Below, in pieces: positions 1,085-64,000 of a stretch of DNA of 64,000 nucleotides; within the stretch, counting starts at the first letter, position 1; the number at the start of each line of letters is the position of its first letter. Source of the stretch: Candidatus Eiseniibacteriota bacterium (lineage in GTDB: Bacteria > Orphanbacterota > Orphanbacteria > Orphanbacterales > Orphanbacteraceae); contig JAJCZU010000010.1 in assembly GCA_029262235.1 (NCBI GenBank), positions 57,011 through 121,010 of the forward strand, written 5' to 3'. The position numbers and the translations under genes were made by a program. Under the pieces are notes generated by a model that saw only the letters and a program-made list of their open reading frames with translations, searched no databases and was not told where the DNA came from.

Positions 1085-1456
1085 CTATGCCGGGCCCGGG
1101 CCCAGATGTTCGACCAGCAACTGCCACGAACCGGCCTCGAGCGTAAGAACCGAAGTGCCCCGCCCGGCGCCGCTCGCGAGTTTCCCGCCGATGTAGCCCG
1201 ACCACGCGAAGTCGAATCGATAGACCGCCAGCTCTTCACCCTTTCGGATCCAGTCGACGTTCTCGACGTGATACGACTCGCTCTTGATCGCCGCAAAGTT
1301 CTTCTCGAACGCCGCCCTCACTTCCGACTTGCCACGATGTACGGATCCATTCGAAAACGTAACGCAGGCATCTTCATGGATCAGTGGCGCGACCTTGCTC
1401 CAGTCCTGTGTGGCAAGCGCGGCTTCGTAAGCGAGAATGAAGTCTTCGGGGCGCAG
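1085..1456 (-). CDS. NTF2-like / SnoaL-like domain protein, likely CTG start
   Basis: About 123 residues with the pattern of the NTF2/SnoaL alpha+beta cone fold used by small hydrolases, isomerases and ligand-binding proteins (DFILAYEAALATQDWSKVAPL near the start, then ACVTFSNGSVHRGKSEVRAAFE, then a beta-rich second half). No ATG, GTG or TTG fits the domain start, but AAGGAG lies six bases before a CTG codon at 1456-1454, so I place the start there. The frame is also open upstream into the broken beta-helix gene, because the 37-bp duplication there shifts that gene into this frame. The resulting 752-codon frame is an accident, not a fusion protein. Substrate unknown. Confidence 0.7.
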   Translation of the reverse strand: MRPEDFILAYEAALATQDWSKVAPLIHEDACVTFSNGSVHRGKSEVRAAFEKNFAAIKSESYHVENVDWIRKGEELAVYRFDFAWSGYIGGKLASGAGRGTSVLTLEAGSWQLLVEHLGPGPA

Positions 1457-1737
1457 GGCGATCTCCTTGGGATTGTGGGCGTGATTCGGACGCGTCGTCG
1501 GCGCGCGGCGTCGGCTTCTCCTCGCCTTTGCGCGGCGTCGGCTTCTCCTCGCCTTCGCCCTGTCGGGCCTGCTCACATGATGCGCGAGACCTGTCTGCCG
1601 AACCCCCGGCCCTCCAATGGGGCTCAGGCTGCGGGGAACCGACGCGCGCACCGACTCGGATCCGCAATCCCGCTGATAGCGAGAGGGGAACGGAAGCTGC
1701 ACAAGCGCGAAGGTGCTCGATCGAGTATCTCGCAATT
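1457..1737. other. Spacer holding repeat copy A, no gene
   Basis: This gap lies between the NTF2-like gene and the end of the beta-helix gene. It is mostly family-1 repeat (1503-1650). Reading frames through it are arginine-rich translations of the repeat. Confidence 0.7.
1503..1650 (-). repeat. Family-1 intergenic inverted-repeat element, copy A
   Basis: Reverse-oriented copy. The left arm GCGCGGCGTCGGCTTC is duplicated in tandem (1503 and 1530, period 27). The core reads CCCTGTCGGGCCTG, later CCCCCGGCCCTCCAATGGGG, and the right arm GGGGAACCGACGCGCGC is complementary to the left one. The same core recurs at 3421, 13199, 63636 and 63878. Confidence 0.85.
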
Positions 1738-3343
1738 CTACCGTAGAAGCGTGATCTTTGCAGTCTGTGATTGCGTTCCGTCTGACAACTGCAGGAAGTA
1801 GATGCCGGGCGACACGTTGCGGCCATTCTCGTCGCGGCCGTCCCATGTTGCGGTGCGTGCGCCGGCGAGGACGGGCGTCCCATGTTGCGGTGCGTGCGCC
1901 GGCGAGGACGGGCGTGCGCGCCACTTTGCGACCGCGCAAGTCGAACACGAGGAGTTCGGTCGCGCTCGCCGCGGGCGACGCGAAACGCAGCGTCACATCG
2001 CCGCGGAACGGGTTCGGTGTCGCGAGAAACGCGGCGCCTCCGACGAACGAATCGTCCTGCGCGCCATCAGCATCACCCGCGCCTGCTACATCTGTCGCCT
2101 GCGCCGTGCACTCGGCGCCGGAATATCCGACGAGAGTACCGTAGGTGCAACCGACCACGTCGAGACAGGGCGAGGCGGGCTTCAAGTCGAAGTTGCCCAG
2201 GGCCGCGTCGCAGAACTTCGGGTTCAGTGAGAAGTTGTTGTTCACGCTCAGAGAATCCGCGAGTGGGCCCGTCCAGTCGCCGTCAGGGTTTCCCCAGATG
2301 TCGGTGCAGAAAACTTTGGGCGCAAGATCCGCGACATGAATCGCTTCCCCCTGCGCGGTCCCCGAGATGATCGTGTTTATGATCGCGAAACCACCCTGCG
2401 GGGATGCCCAGCCGTCATAGTAAACACCGCCGCCCAGCGAGTCCGTCTGGTTGCCCCAAAGCGTGCAATTCCAAAGGATCGAGAAAGCGAGGCTGTTCGC
2501 TTGCGAAGTATCGATCGCAACCGCTCCGCCATGCCAGTCGGCCGCGTTGTTCTTGAGAAGGCATTCGATCAGTCTCACGCGCCCTCTCCTGGCGGAAACG
2601 GCACCACCATCGGTGCCGGCAACGTTCCCTTCGAACTCACACCGCTCGAATGTGACAGAGGCCGAAGTTTCTACAAAAACGGCCCCCCCTCGATCGCTGC
2701 TCGAATTATTCTCGAAGCGACAATCGTTGAAAGTCATGTCATACAGCCACGCGTAAACAGCACCGCCACCGTACTCCGCATCATTGTCACGAAAGACGCA
2801 TTGATTGAAGGTCGCTTTCCCATCGTAATACCCTGCGACGGAGCCTCCCTCATTGCGGACGCCGTTCTGGAACACGCAATCAGTAAATGACGCGCTGGAT
2901 GCCATTCCCACATTGGACGAATCGAAAACGCAGTCCTGAAATTTCCCGACGGCACCTTCACCCGGTATCTCGTCGAAATCAATGAGCATCGAGGAGCCGT
3001 AGGCGAAAGTCAGGTTCTCGAAATAGGTCACGTCGCTGTACATCGCGATGTCGAAGCGGATCCGCACGCAGGAAGGGTCGCCTCCCTGTCCGATGAATCG
3101 CACGTTGCGGGAGTCGAGAAAGATGGTGAGCTTCGCGCCTGCATAGTCTCCGCAATGAATCGCGATCGTGTCGCCGTTTGCGGTCGAGTCGAAAGCCGCC
3201 TGAATCGTCGGCGCGTCGCCAGTACCGTTTTCGTAGACATTCCAGGTGGCGGCGAAAACGCGTGGAGGGATCGAGATTGTGAGAGCTACCGCGATTGCGA
3301 GGACGAGTATCTGAGGCAATTGCTTGCGGCCGTCATGGGACAT
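1738..3343 (-). CDS. Secreted right-handed parallel beta-helix protein with FlgD-like C-terminal domain, frameshifted
   Basis: AAAGGAGG precedes ATG 3343, followed by a signal peptide (ILVLAIAVALTISIPPRVFA). The body has repeated beta-helix coils (FNQCVFRDNDAEYGGGAV, FNDCRFENNSSSDRGGAV and so on), as in polymorphic surface proteins. The C-terminus starts a FlgD-like Ig domain (TPNPFRGDVTLRF, LLVFDLRGRKVART). A perfect 37-bp tandem duplication (1841-1877 and 1878-1914) then shifts the frame. Removing one copy restores TATWDGRDENGRN and an ending QTAKITLLR with a stop at 1738-1740, an intact 522-residue protein. In the given sequence the sorting or anchoring domain is destroyed and translation would run on into the neighbouring NTF2-like frame. 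Confidence 0.85.
1841..1914. repeat. 37-bp perfect tandem duplication inside a coding region
   Basis: The unit beginning TCCCATGTTGCGGTGCGTGC occurs twice without a mismatch (1841-1877, 1878-1914). Since 37 is not a multiple of three, it changes the reading frame of the beta-helix gene just inside its FlgD-like domain. Confidence 0.97.
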
Positions 3344-3420
3344 CCGCGAGCCTCCTTTCTTGATCGCGCTGGTTACTTTATAACCATACCAAGAAAGCGA
3401 GTCCGTGCATAGCGCGGGGC

Positions 3421-3545
3421 GGGCGCGGCGTCGGTTCCCCGCAGCCTGAGCCCCATTGGAGGGCCGGGGGTTCGGCAGACAGGTTTCGCGTTGCGTGTGA
3501 GCAGGCCCGACAGGGCGAAGGCGAGGAGAAGCCGACGCCGCGCAC
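3421..3545 (+). repeat. Family-1 intergenic inverted-repeat element, copy B
   Basis: The left arm GCGCGGCGTCGG (from 3423) and the right arm CCGACGCCGCGC (to 3543) are perfect complements. Between them are the conserved core blocks GTTCCCCGCAGCC, GAGCCCCATTGGAGGGCCGG and GCAGGCCCGACAGGGCGA. It sits between the end of the DMT exporter gene and the start of the beta-helix gene. Confidence 0.9.
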
Positions 3546-3570
3546 GGACCCGCGCCAGTGCCGGCTCACC

Positions 3571-4542
3571 TTACGCGCGCTTCCGCGCCCGAAACGTTCC
3601 GGCCACGCCCGCGAGTATGAGCGCGGTCCCGGCCAGGGTCCACGCGGTCACGTTTTCGTGCAGCAGCAGCCAGCCGAGAAACACCGCGACGACGGGATTC
3701 ACGTAGGCGTACGTCATCACGATGCTCGTCGGCAGCTGGCGAAGCGCCTTCATGAACGACGTGTACGCAATCACGGAGCCGAAGATGACGAGATACCACC
3801 ACGAAAGCCATGCGGTGCGCGACGGATCGGGGGCGGGCTCGCCCTGGATCAGCGCGACGGCAAAGATCGCCGCGGCTCCGAAGAGCATCTGAACACCGGC
3901 GCCGGCGGACGGCGCGACGTCGAGCTTGTTCCGCTGATAGTAGAGCGAGCCGAGCCCCCAGAGCATCGGCGCAACAAGAAGGGCGACAACGGAAAGGGCG
4001 TCGGTCTCACCATGAGGATCCGATAACACCGGGTATGTTAGAACACCCAGTCCGATGAAGCCCAATACGAGCGAAAGAACGAGAAGCACGGTCGGCGCCT
4101 TGCGATCGAGAATGGACTCGGCGATTGCGACCCAGATCGGCATCGAACCGACGAGAAGCGCGGCGTAACCGGACTCGGCGCGCTGCTCGGCCCAGACGAC
4201 GAGGCCGTTCCCGCCGAGGCAGAGCATCACGCCGGTGACGGCGAGGACGCGCAGCTCGCGCCCGGTCAGCCGTACGCGCCGCCGCTTGATCATCGCGAAC
4301 GCGAGCAGCAGCAGGCCGGCGGCGAGAAAGCGGGTTGCGCCGAAATAGAACGGCGGGAAGCCAGCGTCGGCGGCCACGCCGAGGCGGATCGCGAGGTACG
4401 TGCTCCCCCAGACGAAGTAGACGATCATCAGGTGCAGGTAGCCGGTCATCGGAGGGGTCGCCTCGCCGCCGAGGGATCCCGGGCCACCATCGGTCGCCGC
4501 ACTGACCAGGCTTTCGTTTCGAATGCACGCTTCATCACGCAT
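3571..4542 (-). CDS. EamA/DMT-family inner-membrane exporter
   Basis: This is a ten-helix drug/metabolite-transporter protein of the EamA type, which usually exports amino acids or other small metabolites. The two repeated EamA halves are visible: YFVWGSTYLAIRLGV opens the first and APMLWGLGSLYYQRN the second. The family-typical VNPVVAVFLGWLLLHE comes near the end, followed by a short basic tail RARKRA. A GGAG lies eight bases before ATG 4542. The 31-residue leader before MTGYLHLMIVYFVWG is hydrophilic, so the later ATG (4449) is an alternative start. Substrate cannot be read from sequence. Confidence 0.88.
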   Translation of the reverse strand: MRDEACIRNESLVSAATDGGPGSLGGEATPPMTGYLHLMIVYFVWGSTYLAIRLGVAADAGFPPFYFGATRFLAAGLLLLAFAMIKRRRVRLTGRELRVLAVTGVMLCLGGNGLVVWAEQRAESGYAALLVGSMPIWVAIAESILDRKAPTVLLVLSLVLGFIGLGVLTYPVLSDPHGETDALSVVALLVAPMLWGLGSLYYQRNKLDVAPSAGAGVQMLFGAAAIFAVALIQGEPAPDPSRTAWLSWWYLVIFGSVIAYTSFMKALRQLPTSIVMTYAYVNPVVAVFLGWLLLHENVTAWTLAGTALILAGVAGTFRARKRA

Positions 4543-12436: not shown

Positions 12437-13170
12437 GAATCGCAATCGTAGGCGCAACGAAGGGAATGGGGCGTTCGCTCGCGCGGGCGCTCGCCGATCG
12501 CGGCGACCAGCTCTATCTGTGGGGACGCGACATCGGCGACCTCGAGCTCGCGGCCGCGGACCTGCGCGCCCGCTCCGACAGCCGCGTAGCCGGGTTCGGG
12601 GCGCTCGACTTTGAAGCGCCCGAAATGTTCGACGACGCGCTTGACGCAGCAGAGAAGGCGCTCGGCAAACTCGACGGCGTCGTCATAACTGCCGGTTTCT
12701 TCAACACCCAGGACAAACTCGAACAGGACCCCGCGTTTCTCGCACGCCTCATGACCGTGAACTACACGAACACCGTGCTCTTCTGCGAAAACGCGCGCAA
12801 ACGAATGATCGCCGGCGGCGGAGGACTGCTTTGCGTCTTTTCGTCAGTGGCCGGAGACCGCGGCCGGAAACCCGTCATTCTGTACGGCTCCAGTAAAGCA
12901 GGGCTTTCGCACTATCTCGAAGGCCTCGACCACAAGTTCCACGCCTCGGGACTGCACGTACTGAACGTAAAGCCCGGCTTCGTCAAGACGAGCATGACCG
13001 CCGGACTCCCCTCGCCGCCGTTCGCCGGCGATCCCGACGCCGTCGCCCGCACCGTAATCCGCGCCATTGAAAAGAAGAAGGCCGTCGTCTACGCGCCCCC
13101 GATCTGGGGCCTCATCCTCCGCGTCATCCGCACGCTGCCGCGCTTCGTCATGCGAAAGATCAACTTCTAG
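12433..13170 (+). CDS. Short-chain dehydrogenase/reductase, DprE2-like
   Basis: 245 residues. Start TTG overlapping the upstream stop (TTGA), so translation is likely coupled. The NAD(P) glycine motif is GATKGMG at the very N-terminus; NAG is replaced by TAG in VVITAGFF. The catalytic serine and YxxxK appear as FSSVAG and YGSSKAG. A basic/hydrophobic C-terminus (WGLILRVIRTLPRFVMRKINF) is typical of DprE2, which reduces the 2'-keto sugar made by DprE1. The pairing with the upstream DprE1-like gene is the main support for this assignment. The frame stays open upstream to 12292 but that part lies inside the DprE1 gene. Confidence 0.85.
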   Translation: MRIAIVGATKGMGRSLARALADRGDQLYLWGRDIGDLELAAADLRARSDSRVAGFGALDFEAPEMFDDALDAAEKALGKLDGVVITAGFFNTQDKLEQDPAFLARLMTVNYTNTVLFCENARKRMIAGGGGLLCVFSSVAGDRGRKPVILYGSSKAGLSHYLEGLDHKFHASGLHVLNVKPGFVKTSMTAGLPSPPFAGDPDAVARTVIRAIEKKKAVVYAPPIWGLILRVIRTLPRFVMRKINF

Positions 13171-13198
13171 TACGGATTTCCGGAGCCTGCCGCGTCAG

Positions 13199-13340
13199 CG
13201 CGGGCGCGCAGACTTCAGCCTCTCCTCGGCGTCGCCCTGTCGGGCCTGCTCTCATGAAAAGCGAAACTTGAACACCGTACCCCCGGCCCTCCAATGGGGC
13301 TCCGCCTGTGGGGAGCTGAAGCCCGCGCGCCCGTCAGTCG
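13199..13340 (-). repeat. Family-1 intergenic inverted-repeat element, copy C
   Basis: The core blocks match the other copies (GCCCTGTCGGGCCTGCTC, CCCCCGGCCCTCCAATGGGG). The arms are quite different in sequence (GGGCGCGC..CTTCAGC) but still complementary to each other (GCTGAAG..GCGCGCCC on the right, with two A/G differences). Confidence 0.85.
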
Positions 13341-34513: not shown

Positions 34514-34615
34514 GCAGGCTCCTTCGGACACGCGCGCCAAGTTGGCGACGCCCAAGCATACACGATGGGGAGGAGAGAGTGGGATGGGGTCGACGTCTTG
34601 CGTTCAGTGCCGTTC

Positions 34616-34684
34616 GGATTTCCCTCGACCCGCTCGGCTGGCCTGACAGGCCAAGTACGGAGCCTCGCGGGATCCGGGAAGTCC
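34616..34684 (+). repeat. Family-2 intergenic hairpin element, copy 3
   Basis: GGATTTCCC (34616-34624) pairs with GGGAAGTCC (34676-34684); the inner stem is CTGGCC-TGACA-GGCCAAG, followed by TACGGAG. The tail GTCACGGCCCTGAAAGAAAA is shared with copy 2. Confidence 0.85.
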
Positions 34685-34755
34685 GTCACGGCCCTGAAAG
34701 AAAACATCGGCCTTGGAAAGGGGCGGAAGGGAAGGAGGCGGAAGGACAAGAGGAA

Positions 34756-34904: not shown

Positions 34905-35041
34905 TCGTTACCACGCGGGAGACCGGTGGTTGTTTTCTTACCGCCGAAATGGCGGTCGGGAATTGGCCAATCCGCATGTGCCTAACAGTCCCATTGGCCG
35001 TACGCCAGGACGAGCGGGCTGAGGGATCCGGCCTTCCTCAT
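34877..35041 (+). repeat. Family-2 element, copy 4, interrupted
   Basis: The arms GAGAAAGGCCGGTTCCC and GAGGGATCCGGCCTTCCTC are those of copy 5, but about 85 bases, containing another TTGGCCAAT and a GCCGAAATGGC hairpin, lie between the left arm and the core CATTGGCCGTACGCCAGG. Confidence 0.7.
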
Positions 35042-35081: not shown

Positions 35082-35230
35082 GGGGCAAGCGCAAGTTGTT
35101 CACCAACAGACATGAAAACAGCGCGAGGAGTTGTTCTCCGGATCACGCCCCATCGCCTCTTCTCCGGATTCCTCTCGCCGCTCTCAGAGAGCACGGAAAA
35201 ATGAGAAAGGCCGGTTCCCGGAGCCTGCGA
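35082..35230 (+). repeat. 149-bp direct repeat, second unit
   Basis: Second copy of 34756-34904, starting GGGGCAAGCGCAAGTTGTTC, with a handful of substitutions. Confidence 0.92.
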
Positions 35231-35282
35231 GTCCCATTGGCCGTACGCCAGGACGAGCAGGCGGAGGGAATCCGGCCTTCTC
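35204..35282 (+). repeat. Family-2 intergenic hairpin element, copy 5
   Basis: GAGAAAGGCCGGTTCCCGGAGCCTGC pairs with the right arm GCAGGCGGAGGGAATCCGGCCTTCTC. The inner stem is TGGC-CGTA-CGCCA. It ends 23 bases after the stop of the metallopeptidase gene and may also act as its terminator. Confidence 0.85.
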
Positions 35283-63409: not shown

Positions 63410-63525
63410 GGCGCTTGACCGGATTCGCCTCGCCCTCGTCCTCGGCGTACGGCTATCGGACTCGGGTGGCGCTTGACCGGATTCGCCTCGCCCTCGCCCT
63501 CGGCGTACGGCTATCGGACTCGGGA
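63410..63525 (+). repeat. 58-bp tandem duplication
   Basis: The unit starting GGCGCTTGACCGGATTCGCC occurs at 63410-63467 and 63468-63525, with single differences (GTC/GCC, final T/A). Confidence 0.95.
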
Positions 63526-63635
63526 CTCGGCGAACCGGTCTGCGCGCGCGTGCGGAAGTCGGAGCGGAGGAGGAAAACAAAGAAGAGAGAGTATCGAGCA
63601 TTGAGCCCCGCGCTCTCTTCTTCCGTACTCCGCGC

Positions 63636-63758
63636 GAGCGGCGTGTCGGTTCCCCGCAGCCCGAGCCCCATTGGAGGGCCGGGGGCACGGCATTCTCGTT
63701 TTGACCATCTTGTCAGCAGGCCCGACAGGGCGAGGGCGAGGAGAACTGACACGCCCGA
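63636..63758 (+). repeat. Family-1 intergenic inverted-repeat element, copy D
   Basis: Arms GGCGTGTCGGTTCCCC and GAGGAGAACTGACACGCC pair over about 16 bases. The core blocks CGAGCCCCATTGGAGGGCCG and GCAGGCCCGACAGGGCGA are as in copy B, although the arms differ from copies A to C. Confidence 0.9.
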
Positions 63759-63877
63759 GCCAGCGCATTCCGACCGCCAAAACAAATCGAATCCGTTCTT
63801 CCCTCCTCTTCCGTACTCCGTGCGCGCGGAAATGTCGCGGGGGGGGCACTCGCCGATCAAAGCGTCGGCCTCCGCGC

Positions 63878-64000
63878 GAGCGGCGTGTCGGTTCCCCGCA
63901 GCCCGAGCCCCATTGGAGGGCCGGGGGTACGGCATTCTCGTTTTGACTATCTTGTCAGCAGGCCCGACAGGGCGAGGGCGAGGAGAACTGACACGCCCGA
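63878..64000 (+). repeat. Family-1 intergenic inverted-repeat element, copy E
   Basis: Nearly identical to copy D, exactly 242 bp downstream (alignable from 63628/63870). It runs to the window end. Confidence 0.9.

Follow-up and report, generated by a model that had tools for sequence, protein, structure and literature searches.

Dispersed palindromic repeats with locus-specific complementary arms form a genus-restricted superfamily in a member of Candidatus Eiseniibacteriota

The stretch of DNA analysed here (the window; 64,000 nucleotides, positions 57011-121010 of contig 10) belongs to a 4.47-Mb genome assembly that comprises 11 contigs and is about 95% complete. An earlier note on this DNA had described five copies of a structured element (starting at 1503, 3421, 13199, 63636 and 63878); all of them are present and were recovered with an exact two-block pattern that matches exactly five times in the 64-kb window and not once in 100 dinucleotide shuffles. 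These long elements and several shorter relatives were delimited with covariance models R1 (long family) and R2 (short family), whose limits are narrower than the long elements, the arms reaching beyond the model ends:

1503..1655, minus strand: long element, copy 1 (model 1530-1650; R1 match C10:58540-58660)
3403..3566 with full arms, plus strand: long element, copy 2, the one originally flagged (model 3423-3542)
3450..3518, plus strand: conserved inner part of copy 2, CCCCATTGGAGG ... CCGACAGGGCGA, with a variable tip
13193..13340, minus strand: long element, copy 3 (model 13208-13327), 3' of the stop codon of the gene 12466-13170 (plus strand)
34609..34693, minus strand: short-family or related element (R2 match C10:91619-91703, E 1e-5)
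34959..35038, plus strand: short-family element with a damaged 5' side (R2 match C10:91969-92048, E 1e-6)
35203..35282, plus strand: intact short-family element (R2 match C10:92213-92292, E 6e-23), with a T tract after it on the transcript strand
63470..63546, minus strand: short-family relative with an adjoining tandem partial copy (R2 match C10:120480-120556, E 1e-11)
63636..63760, plus strand: long element, copy 4 (model 63638-63756)
63878..64000, plus strand: long element, copy 5 (model 63880-63998; R1 match C10:120890-121008), truncated by the contig end at 121010

The hairpin of copy 2 starts 3 nt past the stop codon of the gene 3571-4542 (minus strand), and its fold z-scores are -3.8 and -4.3, one for each strand. 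In copy 1 (L002), the gene-proximal arm is duplicated in tandem at 1503-1527. A direct repeat of about 38 bp (1838-1915) lies in the 3' part of a secreted-protein gene (1085-3343, minus strand), after which the reading frame continues through copy 1 into the following gene; the secreted-protein gene probably has its true stop codon near 1750. At the other end of the window (63412-63546), tandem GCTTGACCGGATTCGCCTCGCCCTCG..CGGCTATCGGACTCGG sequences form a shell, and the same shell surrounds a long element in the congener (L031).

As the earlier note had proposed, we collected the copies of the whole genome with covariance models, combined with BLAST. Twenty-eight long copies (about 120 nt) were found by BLAST and R1 in this genome and 19 in the one congener compared. 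R1 also picked up a shorter class, for which R2 was then built; among the 74 R2 matches in this genome (E <= 0.1), about 54 are other than long copies. These short or related copies (about 80 nt) number only about five in the congener. In total, about 80 copies are dispersed over this genome. Neither five other genera of the same family nor distant genomes yielded a match, viral contigs contained no match to the element, and no Rfam family matched in the window at gathering thresholds. The sole match beyond the genus is an intragenic Microbulbifer sequence (L045) in which the remainder of the structure is missing, and we attribute it to chance; two weak R2 matches in other phyla (G034, G012) were judged likewise. 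Collectively, the elements constitute a genus-restricted superfamily of dispersed palindromic repeats. Contigs of this genome end in or near elements (window 63880-64000; C7:187470; C1:7-127), which indicates that the assembly breaks at elements and that copies may be missing.

Several further repeats were noticed in the course of this survey. A third related hairpin family (L154, L175; C8 around 129252, with several tandem-like copies), GGAAATCAGTTCTCGGATCC...GGCCATTCGGCC..., has the same general plan and occurs in both species. A fourth repeat, CTCGGCAGGCTCGG..GGGGNCCCCGTCCGGCGCGCCACCCGCC, adjoins short elements and is near-identical between the species (L091 around 1570-1620, L152, L157 around 1260-1330, L177 around 5293 and 6264). 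Some short-family elements carry an extra structured insert of about 90 nt at their tip (L104, C6:121009-121177; congener C528:707-874).

Each long copy folds into one long imperfect rod and not into a chain of local hairpins. The plan common to both size classes reads arm - UUCCCCG.AG - stem - tandem GA - GCCC - CAUUGG... As derived from alignment and covariation, variable outer arms are followed, going inwards, by a conserved stem whose mismatches are fixed (UUCCCCG-AG / CGAGGAGAA), tandem G-A mismatches, the GCCC/GGGC pairing and an internal loop that is likewise fixed (for the long family CAUUGGA/GACA, for the short family a CAU bulge); the apical part consists of an inner stem (GGRCC/GGYCC) and a variable tip. 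Across 45 long copies, GAGCCC, ATTGG and GACAGGGCG vary little or not at all. The local GCCC-GACA-GGGC hairpin of the earlier note is not part of this fold; both of its strands pair instead with the GAGCCCC..GGAGGGCC block, the GGGC of CAGGGCGA pairing with the GCCC of GAGCCCC.

Covariation was assessed in alignments of 45 long copies (from the two genomes) and 25 short copies. In the long family, 19 of 31 pairs have changed on both sides, paired cells exceed those of all 500 shuffles, and pairing falls from 80% to 45-56% when the partner is shifted by one column. The inner GGRCC-GGYCC pair occurs in GC and AU forms, with changes on both sides in 15 of the 45 copies. The short family (19 of 29 pairs changed on both sides) gives the same contrast, and in both families only 0-2 of 500 shuffles scored as high. 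The earlier note had claimed covariation and had named its absence as the outcome that would overturn the claim; significant covariation was found in both families. Pairing had been ascribed to selection or to copying: the covariation itself stands, and copying may have caused it no less than selection.

The outer arms are where the copies part. Cores are 80-95% identical, while arms of different loci share only their first few bases; nevertheless, the two arms of a copy match each other. Among the 45 long copies of the two genomes, own arms scored 14.0 on average against 6.1 for swapped arms, and in 31 copies the own arms beat all 44 swaps, so that the complementarity of differing arms far exceeds chance. 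The arms at 13199 are imperfectly matched. The three unrelated arm versions recognized previously dissolve in the larger collection, in which nearly every locus has its own pair. Arms extend up to 40-60 nt at many loci, the gene-proximal arm is tandemly duplicated at several (L002, L009, L018, L021, L030, L032, L040), and no conserved ends were found in the alignments of the 45 long and 25 short copies.

The position of the elements relative to genes was evaluated for the loci of this genome; genes were called with a simple gene finder based on codons. At 25 loci, a stop codon is present within 110 nt on the sense-5' side only, and at no locus on the other side only (p 6e-8); two further loci have stop codons within this distance on both sides. 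In convergent gaps, the sense-5' stop codon is the nearer one in 17 of 17 cases. The typical site lies 20-100 nt 3' of a stop codon, and it is the strand that starts UUCCCCUCGCC that faces the mRNA side. Sense-5' arms often have their outer end no more than about 10 nt from the stop codon, and several of them enter the end of the coding sequence (for example L124+4446 by 28 nt and L034+5896 by 20 nt). About 20 copies have no stop codon nearby. The window copies all lie between genes, as had been stated for them, but elsewhere elements are present in frame inside genes, in one for a DnaE-like protein, in one for a membrane protein and, in the gene for a secreted protein, in the N-terminal linker; in such coding linkers they encode SPE(P/A)HWP. 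The DnaE-like gene (L099; C2:112900-115900) has an insertion of about 150 low-complexity residues in an N-terminal loop; palindromic elements from two or more families, all in frame, make up part of this insertion.

The neighbouring genes are unrelated and do not belong to a single pathway. A/T tracts flank the stem of several short copies, while most long copies lack T tracts, as judged by eye; ordinary terminators occur in this genome. The fixed orientation in the 3'-UTR keeps a role as a terminator or in 3'-end formation in play, at least for the short family. Most copies probably serve, or are tolerated, as 3'-UTR hairpins, and some of them as transcription terminators.

Sites that lack the element in the congener gave leads on the origin of the arms, and four models of such sites were scored by alignment. 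At the coding site C2:486412, the congener sequence is GCCGGCGGCGAAGTCCGGTCCTTTC|GGGATCG; in the present genome, the left part is retained (GCCGGCGACGAGATCTGTTCCCTTC) and is followed by 72 added bases, among them the core and a near-copy of the left flank in inverted form, before the host sequence resumes. At the second coding site, C4:940938, the left arm encodes GASPSRA and aligns with AATPPARG of the congener, while the right arm is extra. The model in which the sense-5' arm is host sequence fitted best at both (C2:486412: 95.5 versus 89.4, 79.6 and 88.7; C4:940938: 91.0 versus 72.3, 51.7 and 85.8), and adding the sense-5' arm to the host improved the alignment (95.5 versus 79.6 and 91.0 versus 51.7, respectively). 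Shuffled sense-5' arms reached the score in 7 of 1000 trials at C2:486412, a modest p of 0.007, and in 0 of 1000 at C4:940938; the gain from the sense-3' arm was at both sites no greater than that of its own shuffles. These two coding sites suggest that the sense-5' arm is old host sequence and that the other arm arose as an inserted, inverted copy of the host flank. Of these two informative sites, which also served for a target-duplication test, one shows a possible short CTTC/TTTC repeat. C4:941803 and C4:726407 are likewise empty in the congener, but they are intergenic and too diverged for the arms to be assigned, and C3:66681, C4:1007404 and C4:1010137 are uninformative because the congener has lost the whole spacer. 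At one nested site (L031 versus L179), the polarity could be read in the opposite sense.

The same sites bear on an alternative that we consider unlikely, in which the elements insert into the loops of existing hairpins (intrinsic terminators or other elements), each arm then being one half of the target hairpin. Sites directly 3' of stop codons, the A/T tracts outside the stem of several short copies and the presence of ordinary terminators in the genome would fit this idea, as does the nesting of a long element in a short one in the congener (L037/L093, where the shell of the congener element is a plain short element here). However, the congener has one arm only at both coding sites, and the corresponding model fits worse (88.7 versus 95.5; 85.8 versus 91.0). 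Arms of long copies, moreover, generally lack T tracts and can enter coding sequence. A terminator hairpin at the orthologous gene end was looked for in genus G005, where synteny is not established, and none was seen. The one-arm empty sites, a small sample, hence favour inverted copying of the flank over insertion into ready-made hairpins.

Fourteen orthologous pairs of elements allowed us to follow changes after insertion. Because of possible register shifts, we replaced a naive pair count, in which one-sided changes mostly break pairs (105 broken versus 24 kept), with a test of arm similarity. The two arms of one element resemble each other more closely than do arms paired crosswise between the species (13.7 versus 10.4 at 20 nt, p 0.004; 15.6 versus 11.0 at 28 nt, p 0.002), which indicates that both arms change together; the excess over the same-side arms of the other species is weak (p 0.048 for 20 nt and 0.19 for 28 nt). 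Both arms have been replaced wholesale in some pairs (L040+5479/L004), and three of the 14 pairs kept their arms while the tip belongs to another sequence class (L034-/L021, L039/L025, L040-/L003). The congener ortholog of window copy 3 (L042) has partly compensated arms. Co-change, tip exchange, nesting and arm duplication would be the expected traces of repeated template switching; selection on a 3'-UTR hairpin may also play a part.

Such selection is central to another explanation, to which we give a rather low probability: the elements might be a structured 3'-UTR RNA or terminator class under selection for pairing, whose copies arose by duplication and whose arms diverged by compensatory mutation. 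Covariation, the fixed orientation 3' of stop codons, the co-change of arms between species and the near-invariant internal loops are all in keeping with it. It accommodates poorly that arms are unlike between loci beyond their first few bases despite near-identical cores, that copies occur in frame inside genes, that empty sites have one arm, that one-sided changes in orthologous arms so often break pairs, and that the neighbours do not form one pathway. The suggestion of an undescribed structured RNA retains the covariation in its favour, which may, however, stem from copying. The idea of a bidirectional terminator draws on the fixed 3'-UTR site, the GC-rich hairpin and the A/T tracts in part of the short family; the long family departs from it in its missing T tracts and large conserved apical domain.

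The earlier note had also considered a MITE/REP-like mobile element and had proposed a search for a REP-associated transposase. No Y1 transposase (PF01797) was found in this genome or in the congener, while the same search was positive in four of five other genomes of the family (three genera), all of which lack the elements. That these are MITE or REP sequences mobilised in trans by a transposase is very improbable, as neither carrier genome has a Y1 member (the class searched, in a genome about 95% complete) and the element ends are not conserved, even though the elements are dispersed, genus-restricted and inserted in frame, with short copies about tenfold more numerous here than in the congener. 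What holds of the former proposal is the dispersed palindromic repeat, the category that fits best given the copy number, the near-identical cores, the in-frame coding insertions and the genus restriction; a strict REP or a strict MITE with terminal inverted repeats does not fit. Like REP/BIME sequences, the elements are mismatched hairpins 3' of genes that occur in pairs between convergent genes, but they lack a GTAG end and measure 80-170 nt instead of the 20-40 nt of a REP. Like MITEs, they are non-coding, dispersed and able to fold, but no terminal inverted repeats are common to the copies, whose outer arms differ between loci.

Closer parallels exist. Rickettsia palindromic elements (RPE) are palindromic repeats of about 100-150 bp, with several families in one genus and no known transposase, that lie both between genes and in frame inside genes (PMC10969869; PMC3733652). 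Our elements resemble them in size, in the number of families in one genus, in the in-frame coding insertions and in the lack of a known transposase. However, the terminal CGTC tag described for RPE (PMC3733652) is absent, the ends being locus-specific, partly host-derived arms, and our elements keep a fixed orientation relative to gene ends. Template switching is known to make reverse-complement stems and to keep stems matched, so that inverted copies of a flank form and correct such quasipalindromes (PMC8794818), and mitochondria provide known examples of coding palindromes with concerted arms (PMC6649704). The two coding sites, with one apparently ancestral arm and one inserted inverted copy, look like products of this process; known events are local and sporadic, whereas here the same core occurs at about 80 loci. 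Integron attC sites share with our elements a single-strand hairpin 3' of a gene, a fixed orientation and a structure that is kept while the sequence varies. In attC, the outer boxes are conserved and the rest is variable, the reverse of the variable outer arms and conserved core seen here; the present elements have neither conserved complementary outer boxes nor cassette arrays and are dispersed on both strands. A small search of the open-access literature found no description of dispersed repeats with target-derived arms.

The reading that we prefer, and to which we would give about an even chance, is that the elements are palindromic repeats of the RPE type, in most cases retained as 3'-UTR hairpins, and that template switching makes their arms and perhaps also maintains them. 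Insertion takes place mainly 20-100 nt 3' of stop codons and sometimes in frame into permissive protein linkers. The nascent strand would pass through the host flank into the core, fold back on the hairpin, copy its own host flank as the inverted arm and then return to the host template; copying of its own flank would leave arms that vary from locus to locus and still match each other. Later template switching between copies may swap tips and re-match arms; exchange and co-change were observed, and this cause is proposed for them. We infer the copying and its polymerase steps from the two coding sites. That arms so often start at the stop codon is not accounted for by copying alone. More tentatively, the repeats might spread without any transposase: short matches to the TTCCC with which the core starts would let it enter new sites by template switching during replication, the nascent strand would fold back and copy the host flank in the same event, so that each insertion would bring an arm made from its own target, and later switches would exchange tips.

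The elements are real, their signal is well above chance, and they are more interesting than a terminator family; the mechanism proposed from the two clear sites is well motivated. The spread of palindromic repeats that have no transposase, RPE among them, is in need of explanation, and target-copied arms would provide a direct, testable footprint of the insertion step. The case also implies that strong covariation of arms, usually taken as proof of a selected RNA, can result from how a hairpin is made.
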